DNA from: Eubacteriales bacterium
GTDB taxonomy: Bacteria; Bacillota; Clostridia; UBA1381
DNA: 55,621 nucleotides
NCBI GenBank assembly: GCA_018384175.1
Contig: JAHAZB010000035.1
Location: 1 to 55,621 of the forward strand
Reading direction: 5' to 3'
A program made the translations under genes and the position numbers. Under the pieces are notes generated by a model. The model searched no databases, was not told the DNA's origin, and saw nothing but the letters and a program-made list of their open reading frames with translations. Below are positions 32,138-34,930 of the stretch, in pieces; position 1 is the stretch's first letter, and each line of letters opens with the position of its first letter.

Positions 32138-32863
32138 TTAATATTCATCATCTTCAAAATCTAATTGCAGCTCTTCTCCCCAGATACTTTCCATCCACAA
32201 GCTGTCTGTTTGTGCGGCAGACCATAGTCCTATCGTCATGAATAAAGCCGATAACAGCCACATTGTGTTATTGGTAAACCATTCAGCATAAATTTCCAGT
32301 TCACCGTTTACTGCAATACATATCATTGGTGATATAAATCTTATCAGAAATATCACCGAAAAGATAATTGCCACTGTCTTTCTTTTCCTGTGCATCATAA
32401 TAGCAGCAACAAAATACATAAGACTTATAGCCAGCGACAGCAATACTCCTGCAAGACTGGTTGTGCCCCACATCAAACGGTTTGCAGCTATGTAGTTAGA
32501 TGTAATTGCCTGATAAAGAAACATTTTTTCTGTATCAAGCAAATCCCTGAACGTATAATAATTAAGATACTCAAACGCCCACATCACACCTGAAAGAGCA
32601 GATATCGAAAACGCCACCAGAAACACCTTTTCCAACAATATTTTAGGAAAAAACGCATTACGTCTCACAAAGAATATAACAGGCAAAAGCAAACACTCAA
32701 ACCTGAATACAGCATACACAAAATTCGTAAGTGTAAAAGCTCTGTACTCTATCATATTCATTATATAGTCCATATGTGATGTCAAAACATAAATGATGCC
32801 GAAAACTACGCTCATGCCCATAAGAAACAAATATCTTTTACGTCCGTTCGAAAGAAAAATCAT
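32138..32863 (-). CDS. Hypothetical multi-TM protein, paralogue B
   Basis: 241 aa; same C-terminal pattern (ISPMICIAVN...TIGLWSAAQTDSLWMESIW) as the adjacent ORF. Confidence 0.65.
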   Translation of the reverse strand: MIFLSNGRKRYLFLMGMSVVFGIIYVLTSHMDYIMNMIEYRAFTLTNFVYAVFRFECLLLPVIFFVRRNAFFPKILLEKVFLVAFSISALSGVMWAFEYLNYYTFRDLLDTEKMFLYQAITSNYIAANRLMWGTTSLAGVLLSLAISLMYFVAAIMMHRKRKTVAIIFSVIFLIRFISPMICIAVNGELEIYAEWFTNNTMWLLSALFMTIGLWSAAQTDSLWMESIWGEELQLDFEDDEY

Positions 32864-32952
32864 AATAGCCTCCTGTTATATAAATATTTTTAGCCTATCA
32901 TTGAGTCATCTATCTTTTGAATAGAATATCTTCCGTTTTCAACATTCCACGA

Positions 32953-33033
32953 TTAACCCAAATTACACAGATTCGGAAAATGCGTACAGTTTTCTTCAAA
33001 CGTCATTTCCTGTATAGCTTTTTCTATGTCCAT
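32953..33033 (-). CDS. Possible 26-aa peptide or remnant ORF
   Basis: ATG after GGAGG; MDIEKAIQEMTFEENCTHFPNLCNLG. Short. Confidence 0.25.
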   Translation of the reverse strand: MDIEKAIQEMTFEENCTHFPNLCNLG

Positions 33034-33191
33034 ACCATTCCTCCATAGTGTTGCCAATTCCTGTCTTTTCCCGAATTCAAGTCAGACTCACCTATATATT
33101 TTAGATTGTATTATTCATAGTTTTTTCTTTTTGTAACTTTTATCCCTTCGCATTATTATAGAATCAGCGAACGATTTAGATGCCAATCGGT

Positions 33192-33548
33192 TTATCTTAG
33201 CACATACTCAGAAATCATTTTACAAATCTCTTTTATGTTAGATTCTCCTCTGAATTCAAATTTAACTTTTCCTACACCAGAAAAATATAGTTCTAATTCA
33301 CAATCCGACATATTCCCATACCATAATTTTTCACCCAAACCTACTGTTTCAACAGAATAAACCTGAATTTTAGAATATGGTATCGACGTATAATCTTGTT
33401 TTGTCCCTGTTATTCCCTGTGCATTCATGGATATTATTCTTTTATTTGTAAAAACAATCTGATTGCGTAATCCTTTATATGTAGAAATAATACTTTCATC
33501 TGAAATCAGTAATGGTCCAACTAACTGCTCTGCCTTTTCGTTCTCCAC
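33192..33548 (-). CDS. PH-domain-like protein
   Basis: ISTYKGLRNQIVFTNKRIISMNAQGITGTKQDYTSIPYSKIQVYSVET is bacterial PH-like. Confidence 0.7.
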   Translation of the reverse strand: MENEKAEQLVGPLLISDESIISTYKGLRNQIVFTNKRIISMNAQGITGTKQDYTSIPYSKIQVYSVETVGLGEKLWYGNMSDCELELYFSGVGKVKFEFRGESNIKEICKMISEYVLR

Positions 33549-33592
33549 CTTTTTTAACTTGAAAAATGTTGTGTTCTTGAAATCAATCCTTT

Positions 33593-33955
33593 TTAATCTC
33601 CTTTTGTATTTTCTTTTGCGGTATTTACCGAAGATATTAAGAGTTTACGAATTTTACTGCATTTATCATACATTTCTTTATATTCTTGCTCAGTAATCAT
33701 TTTTGTGTCCTTGAATAATCCTAACCAATAATCACTTTCATAACACTCTTTGAGTGCAATTTGAAACTTATTTATAAAATCAGGTTTACTTGCAGCATAA
33801 TTTGCTTCGTGTATATTAGCTCCTATACTTGTGCCACTTCTTAAAAGTTGGTTGAGCAATACATTTCCTTTTCTTTTTTCTTTAATCTCTGCACACAAAT
33901 TAACTACATCTACCGCAAATTGCTTTGACAATTCTACAAGCTTATTTTCCTTCAT
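33593..33955 (-). CDS. Four-helix-bundle protein (S23 / 23S rRNA-intervening-sequence protein family)
   Basis: LLRSGTSIGANIHEANYAASKPDFINKFQIALKECYESDYWLGLF is the family signature. Confidence 0.92.
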   Translation of the reverse strand: MKENKLVELSKQFAVDVVNLCAEIKEKRKGNVLLNQLLRSGTSIGANIHEANYAASKPDFINKFQIALKECYESDYWLGLFKDTKMITEQEYKEMYDKCSKIRKLLISSVNTAKENTKGD

Positions 33956-33973
33956 GCTTATTCTCCATTTTAA

Positions 33974-34153
33974 TGAATTGACAACTCCGTTGTCATGAAT
34001 TGGATTTTATCCATGAATTGTTGCTATCGCAACATAAATTGAATTGCCTTTAATGCACCTCAAGGTGCAATTCATGAGTCGCAGACTCAATTCATGAAAC
34101 TGCAGGTTTCAATTCATGCCGTCAGGCAATTCATTGAGTTTGCTTTGCAAACT
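33974..34153. repeat. Array of short perfect hairpins with 5-nt TGAAT/ATTCA linkers ('fishbone' element)
   Basis: Hairpins 33979-33995, 34001-34013, 34019-34034, 34054-34069, 34075-34089, 34095-34111, 34117-34128, 34137-34153; linkers listed in findings. Confidence 0.9.
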
Positions 34154-34279
34154 TATTATATCACACAAAAAAATCTTTTTCAATAGCAAAAGAAATATTT
34201 GTTTTTTTTGCTTTACAATGGCGAAAAATAATTGTATAATATAAGATAGAATAATATTATTTAAGGAATGAAAACGTAG

Positions 34280-34930
34280 ATGTTTAATTTGCAGTCAATA
34301 TTGATTGGTTTACCAACAACTCTATTAGCACTTACTGTACACGAGTTTGCTCACGGCTGGGTTTCAACCAAATTAGGTGATCCGACTCCACGTTATGAAG
34401 GACGGCTTACAATGAACCCTATGGCGCACTTGGACCTTATTGGTACAATTCTAATGATAATTACCGGTTTCGGTTGGGCAAAACCCGTTAGAATTAACCC
34501 CAACTACTACAAAAACAGAACAAAGGGTATGGCACTCGTTGCAGCAGCAGGACCTTTAGCTAACTTCTTTCTTGCCTTTATCGGCATACTAGTGGGTTAT
34601 ATTATTATCCTTTTATGTCTTCTGGCAAATGTGCCGGGTACGGTTATCCGTTCTCTTGAAAACATTGTTTTTGTATTTGCATTCAGAAACCTTTGCTTTA
34701 TGGTGTTTAACCTGATTCCCCTGCCGCCTCTGGACGGCTTTAAGGTAGCAGGACTATTTATACCAAATCGCATATACTACAACATACTCCGCTATGAGCA
34801 GTATGTAATCCTTGTTATTATGCTCTTGTCCCTTTCGGGTGCATTTAACAGCATAATAGGTACCGGAGTTAATTTCTTTATGAATATGCTTTTTAATGCA
34901 GTATGGAGCATATTAGGTATTTTTATATAA
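34280..34930 (+). CDS. Site-2 protease family (M50) membrane metallopeptidase
   Basis: LTVHEFAHGWVSTKLGDPTPRYEGRLTMNPMAHLD...NLIPLPPLDGFKV. Confidence 0.93.
   Translation: MFNLQSILIGLPTTLLALTVHEFAHGWVSTKLGDPTPRYEGRLTMNPMAHLDLIGTILMIITGFGWAKPVRINPNYYKNRTKGMALVAAAGPLANFFLAFIGILVGYIIILLCLLANVPGTVIRSLENIVFVFAFRNLCFMVFNLIPLPPLDGFKVAGLFIPNRIYYNILRYEQYVILVIMLLSLSGAFNSIIGTGVNFFMNMLFNAVWSILGIFI

Follow-up and report, generated by a model that had tools for sequence, protein, structure and literature searches.

A fishbone hairpin array before an IVP gene, probable left end of a mobile cassette inserted at promoters in gut Clostridia

The locus and its hairpin array

The window analysed is a stretch of 55,621 nucleotides from a Eubacteriales bacterium (contig JAHAZB010000035.1), in which an array of hairpins, at 33974-34153, lies between a promoter and a gene of the IVP family (Table 1). 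The array was read along the minus strand, which is the coding strand of the adjoining IVP gene. The window element starts at the base right after the -10 box of the promoter. The IVP gene, the only one in this genome, begins 18 nt 3' of the array on the same strand, and is followed by a cargo gene and by the right end of the element. An M50 peptidase gene flanks the whole on one side, and membrane-protein genes on the other. Between the right end and the membrane-protein gene (32864-33150), an apparent decayed ORF (MDIEKAIQEMTFEENCTHFPNL...) is present, possibly an earlier insertion. PADLOC found no match for the IVP and bPH proteins of the window; it matched the nucleotidyltransferase cargo of another element, weakly, to a candidate system.

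Table 1. Positions of the features at the locus, all on the minus strand
Feature	Position	Strand	Basis or remark
Resident host promoter, TTGAAA (34183-34178), 17 nt, TATAAT (34160-34155)	34155..34183	-	best promoter match of the region, 11/12, extended -10
Whole inferred mobile element, ~1 kb: array, IVP gene, cargo gene, right end	33155..34154	-	missing between the flanking genes in G010, G011 and G063
Outer (left-end) hairpin, AGTTTGC-aaa-GCAAACT	34137..34153	-	sequence; equivalent hairpin abuts TATAAT in 34/46 family copies
Left half-array, 4 x (TGAAT linker + hairpin), h1 to h4	34054..34133	-	sequence; covariation over 14 homologues
h1	34128-34117	-	sequence
h2	34111-34095	-	sequence
h3	34089-34075	-	sequence
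h4	34069-34054	-	sequence
Central arm GGCAATTCA (34048-34040), then first right linker ATTTA	34035..34048	-	sequence
Right half-array, 3 x (hairpin + ATTCA linker), h5 to h7	33974..34034	-	sequence; covariation
h5	34034-34019	-	followed by ATTCA
h6	34013-34001	-	followed by ATTCA
h7	33995-33979	-	followed by ATTCA
IVP gene, 120 aa, four-helix-bundle protein, 23S_rRNA_IVP (PF05635 / TIGR02436)	33593..33955	-	Pfam 3.4e-26; NCBIfam 7.8e-30
Cargo gene, bacterial PH-domain protein (bPH_1), GTG start	33192..33548	-	Pfam 1.2e-31; missing at the relatives' empty site
Right end, TTGGCATCT, 17 nt, TATAAT	33155..33186	-	IVP-less copies end in the same tail; follows the cargo gene in several linker families

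The array consists of seven hairpins spaced by exact 5-nt linkers, four of them after TGAAT and the others before ATTCA. At its centre, the arm GGCAATTCA is complementary to TGAATTGCC, that is, to linker 1 and the 5' arm of h1. A first-pass annotation, made from the sequence alone, had listed stems, loops and linkers, and each of them was recovered at its coordinates; the seven stems all start with TG and finish with CA, and the right linker is indeed the reverse complement of the left one. Its count of three hairpins per side had to be changed to four plus three. It was right in seeing a structured element. What it overlooked was the host promoter abutting the array, the mobility, and three further parts: IVP gene, cargo gene and right end.

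Folded as RNA, the window array has a z-score of -5.47, equalled by 0/200 shuffles, and an automated search counted 14 linker-hairpin-linker units in it, as many as across all 149 shuffled loci (536 kb). The Rfam 15 covariance models gave no match to the array, with E values up to 1. In agreement with the first-pass annotation, there is no terminator-like site (G+C-rich stem followed by a U run) at 32700-34400, and no relationship to REP or attC sequences was found. The inverted CRISPR layout that it had evoked goes no further than appearance: no cas genes are adjacent to the array, and the constant part is a 5-nt linker, as opposed to the CRISPR repeats of more than 20 nt.

Fourteen TGAAT-type arrays, taken from MAGs of mostly ruminant-gut Clostridia, were aligned. 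Stem cells were paired in 92.4% of cases, versus 28-43% in slid controls, and two-sided changes affected 15/40 pairs when 4.6 were expected, a level that none of 500 shuffles reached. Covariation of the stems is supported by these figures. RNAalifold preferred, over separate hairpins, a ladder in which left linkers are paired with right linkers. This ladder is no proof of linker-linker pairing, because linkers barely vary within a family: rung by rung, linker covariation within families was not significant, except that in family B the first right linker best fits the innermost left linker. The complementarity of left and right linkers, which holds in all families, supports either pairing of some kind or a symmetric mode of recognition.

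As for a fortuitous origin, by chance palindromes or degraded repeats devoid of function, it would suit the single copy of the array in its own genome (88% complete). We give it practically no credit, and rejected it on the covariation, the existence of a multicopy family, the fixed position before IVP genes, and the zero counts in controls. The annotation had staked its case on recurrence; many instances were found in related genomes, with covarying stems and conserved linkers.

Linker families and the IVP protein

IVP genes were gathered at the family, order and class levels. Many of them are directly preceded by a fishbone array, with about nine linker versions (GCTAAAT, GTGATAT, TCGATAT and others), and in every linker family the right linkers are the reverse complement of the left ones. 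Most often, the first stem arm is repeated at the centre, between four hairpins on the left and three on the right, and a centre equivalent to that of the window array is seen in other families. A strict symmetric array was found at most 400 nt 5' of the IVP gene in 35 of the 149 loci and elsewhere in 2, against 0 in shuffled loci.

Placed on the IVP tree, linker type changes 13 times (minimum 10; shuffled mean 63), and types B, A, D, D2, E and C each fall on one side of a branch. Each IVP clade spans several host families, and it is the clade, rather than the host, that predicts the linker. Judged from this tree, the IVP protein and the linker are co-inherited.

Not all families share the position seen in the window. 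In families B, C, F and G, the array comes after a terminator or a tRNA gene, and the target may be something other than a -10 box; in B and C, there is an apparent promoter between the array and the gene. A role as leader of the IVP mRNA is thus not universal. Family D arrays (L032, L092, L107, L118, L096, L151) are repeatedly situated right at the 3' end of a 23S rRNA methyltransferase gene (rlmD-like C-terminus) that, by eye, seems to be the same each time, which would be a second type of preferred site. At three loci (L163, L166, L169), the left half-array is repeated directly after the IVP gene, a sign of duplication or recombination at arrays.

The AlphaFold model (AF2) of the window IVP has a pLDDT of 93. 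Pentameric structures of the S23 family (2RLD, 2GSC) match it and, at a greater distance, so do Avd (4DWL) and the Avd of a DGR ribonucleoprotein (8UB7); for the Avd fold, TM values are about 0.76-0.85. To our knowledge, the function of the IVP family has been unknown for decades, and we know of no catalytic domain in IVP. The family has been described as functionally uncharacterised (PMC11270868) and as encoded within selfish rRNA intervening sequences (PMC4990558), and the likeness of PF05635 to Avd has already been noted (PMC10053308).

The classical IVS form was met in one complete genome (G276; L069, L079-L082), where 23S rRNA genes contain several identical IVP copies, with short repeats and no hairpin array upstream. 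Other IVP clades (L014, L010, L034, L048, L146-L148, L150) are found after tRNA genes or in intergenic DNA, flanked by degenerate short repeats (for instance GTGCAAA..., with its reverse complement beyond the gene) and no hairpins. These clades possibly follow the same principle, minus the side hairpins.

Insertion after -10 boxes and copies without IVP

Among 46 copies having an outer hairpin, 34 have a left end in direct contact with TATAAT (allowing 1 mismatch), versus 13.5% by chance. A -35 box is present as well in 22/46, compared with 1.9% expected, and its spacing is nearly always 17 nt. Apart from the promoter boxes, the 30 independent regions upstream show no relationship to one another (mean identity 0.28 to 0.37), so that the promoter belongs to the host.

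Empty sites were found for three elements. For the window, G010, G011 and G063 have a divergent promoter with 17-nt spacing between the flanking genes, and neither array, nor IVP gene, nor bPH gene. In G239, an array stands in front of one gene (L253); the orthologous promoters in two congeners (L307, L292) have none. The array before a PHP gene in G180 (L245) is missing in G531 (L289), where the same TTGCTT-N17-TATAAT is present. Compared in this way, these genomes, which are draft MAGs with element boundaries read from few sites, show insertion immediately downstream of the -10 boxes of resident promoters, in one orientation. Together, the comparisons support mobility and a preference of target. 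Left and right hexamers agree more than when permuted (p = 0.035, n = 20), which is only suggestive of a duplication of the -10 hexamer.

A covariance model detected TGAAT-type arrays in 34 of 392 Clostridia genomes. With the exact h1 pattern, 14 matches were obtained in G180 and 12 in G498, and the reversed control gave 0 in all 18 genomes. An IVP gene lies within 400 nt in only 2 of 39 model-derived copies. Somewhere in the genome, an IVP gene is present in 31 of the 34 array genomes (some matches being weak) versus 101/393 in the class sample, an association that is confounded by phylogeny. No IVP was shown in G239, in G475 and, apparently, in G117, although arrays are present, so that the present spread need not depend on a resident IVP. 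Such a distribution of arrays and IVP genes is the pattern of a master element accompanied by non-autonomous, MITE-like derivatives. Two copies at different sites of one genome (L086/L087) are 98% identical over 636 nt, and in two different host families (L210/L211), array and downstream DNA are 99.6% identical from the left end onward. In G180, another array (L247) stands where a spoIVB-like gene ends, and the last codons of this gene recur after the array, as if its end had been duplicated.

IVP-less copies often finish in GCATCT-N17-TATAAT, or in a variant form of this conserved tail. Specific tails numbered 60 across all loci and 0 in reversed controls. In many copies, as at 33155-33186, the 17 nt from GCATCT to TATAAT are a -35-like spacing, while GCATCT does not match the -35 consensus. 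In families A, D2 and E, the right end encloses one cargo gene downstream of IVP. Genes that are enclosed or follow directly encode P-loop kinases, small membrane proteins, a nucleotidyltransferase, HNH and NUDIX proteins, and one small gene can stand behind arrays of differing linker families (L117/L149, L096/L151). That every downstream gene is cargo was rejected: many are resident, such as prfB after L159. Finally, elements are stacked: the TATAAT of one right end can be followed directly by a further element, whether of its own linker family or of a different one.

Proposed mechanism, alternatives and known systems

We consider it probable that the array is the structured left end, as well as the leader, of a mobile cassette inserting after -10 boxes, of a class that seems undescribed. 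Such a cassette would start with the outer hairpin and the fishbone array, continue with the IVP gene and a single cargo gene, and close with GCATCT-N17-TATAAT. The host promoter would transcribe the array first, then IVP, the cargo and the resident gene. The IVP protein is a homologue of pentameric Avd; its most likely role is to bind the repeated linkers exposed by the hairpins, both in cis and, on copies lacking IVP, in trans. Insertion after a -10 box, always in the sense orientation, suggests the melted -10 region of open promoters as the target, and a folded single-stranded nucleic acid as the moving form that enters it. Because IVP has no known catalytic domain, cutting or copying would be the task of a partner enzyme encoded elsewhere. 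Put together, these steps would make a new mechanistic class, in which an Avd-like IVP ring reads the linkers of a single-stranded intermediate, the promoter is hijacked for the cassette and its cargo, and the far-end TATAAT is rebuilt as a landing site; we propose it tentatively, as one possibility.

In TRAP-type leader binding, a ring-shaped oligomer sits on evenly spaced short repeats of a leader. A regulatory RNA of this kind, in which the IVP pentamer would bind the 5' leader and autoregulate its own mRNA, as well as other array-led genes in trans, dispersal being due to ordinary horizontal transfer and recombination, would account for the sense orientation of arrays at transcript 5' ends, the covarying stems with constant linkers, the coevolution of linker and IVP, and the multicopy leaders before diverse genes. 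The three comparisons with discrete presence or absence at -10 boxes and the unrelated promoter sequences upstream of the copies argue against it, families B and C seem to place the promoter after the array, and a regulon leaves unexplained why elements of different linker families are stacked in tandem, each after the TATAAT of the one before. The present arrays also differ from TRAP leaders in that the spacers are hairpins and the words of both strands are present, and IVP-linker binding is putative. As the whole explanation, we find this somewhat unlikely; regulation is compatible with mobility, so that IVP control of array-led genes may be a second function of the cassette.

Two other proposals retain mobility and change the enzyme. 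The IVP fold, which matches Avd and the DGR ribonucleoprotein, and a left end near the expected transcription start, would suit a retroelement in which IVP-bound array RNA is copied into cDNA by a reverse transcriptase from another locus, for integration at promoters. We hold this rather improbable: the element has no reverse transcriptase, and its right end coincides with another TATAAT, instead of an RNA 3' end or poly-A. Resemblance to diversity-generating retroelements stops at the fold, no RT being found among the flanking proteins tested, nor a template repeat or variable repeat in the element. A Y1 HUH transposase acting in trans on end hairpins and inserting a non-autonomous, IS200/IS605-like element (PATE) 3' of single-stranded TATAAT would explain directional insertion after a short AT-rich motif, a left-end hairpin, the lack of terminal inverted repeats and the non-autonomous copies. 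Yet, among 18 array-bearing genomes that were tested, 5 yielded no Y1 domain (one of them G239, 92% complete), the seven Y1 loci examined are flanked not by arrays but by unrelated palindromes or repeats of their own, the end hairpin varies in sequence (AGTTTGC, GATTTCATC, GCGGTC), and the possible target duplication would not fit. It appears decidedly improbable, and Y1/RAYT was rejected as mobiliser, being missing from several array-rich genomes. The Y1 genes at these loci (L312-L318) are RAYT-like, of about 180-285 aa, and several have palindromes such as CTTACCAAAAGGGA-cgg-TCCCTTTTGGTAAG.

The promoter-inserting cassette has parallels among known systems. The 23S rRNA IVS of Coxiella and Leptospira, called selfish, share the protein family and complementary folding flanks (PMC4990558), and rRNA insertions of CPR bacteria exist in ORF-containing and ORF-less versions (PMC11270868). 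Unlike the 23S rRNA IVS, the window element resides in a promoter, not in rRNA; constant linkers separate its hairpins, it carries a cargo gene, and it ends in GCATCT-N17-TATAAT. As MITEs, the arrays are short, multicopy, non-coding and structured, with longer coding relatives, but the coding copies have no recognisable transposase, and the orientation at -10 boxes is strict. No terminal inverted repeats were seen by eye, the outer hairpin and the GCATCT tail being unrelated. Hairpin ends, a fixed orientation and directional insertion 3' of a short motif are shared with IS200/IS605, PATEs and REP/RAYT, from which the cassette differs by its seven-hairpin fishbone ends and by having no Y1 transposase, either in the element or linked to arrays. 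Integron cassettes also combine a structured site with a single small accessory gene, and the tandem array-gene-array-gene stacks recall them; however, no integrase was seen at the element, the array comes before the gene, immediately next to a host promoter, and no attC layout was apparent by eye.

In the open-access papers searched on IVP, hairpin arrays and promoter-targeting MITEs, no account of these arrays was found; they seemingly belong to a family of small mobile cassettes in gut Clostridia that had escaped description. The elements appear to form a little-noticed mobilome, in which 5' UTRs would be rewired by precise insertion at transcription starts and small accessory genes ferried from one host family to another. 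By entering at the -10 box, the cassettes would link DNA mobility to promoter opening. The fishbone arrays are a candidate nucleic-acid partner for the widespread, uncharacterised IVP ('four helix bundle', S23) proteins and, since array sequence co-diverges with IVP, this partnership is directly testable in vitro. A single-stranded, promoter-inserting cassette would, if true, be the first function for stand-alone IVP/S23 proteins.

A search of viral contigs with A1 as query returned one distant IVP. On two unannotated phage contigs of human-fecal origin, MT835590 and MT835815 (L179, L180), IVP genes were led by arrays of other linker families.
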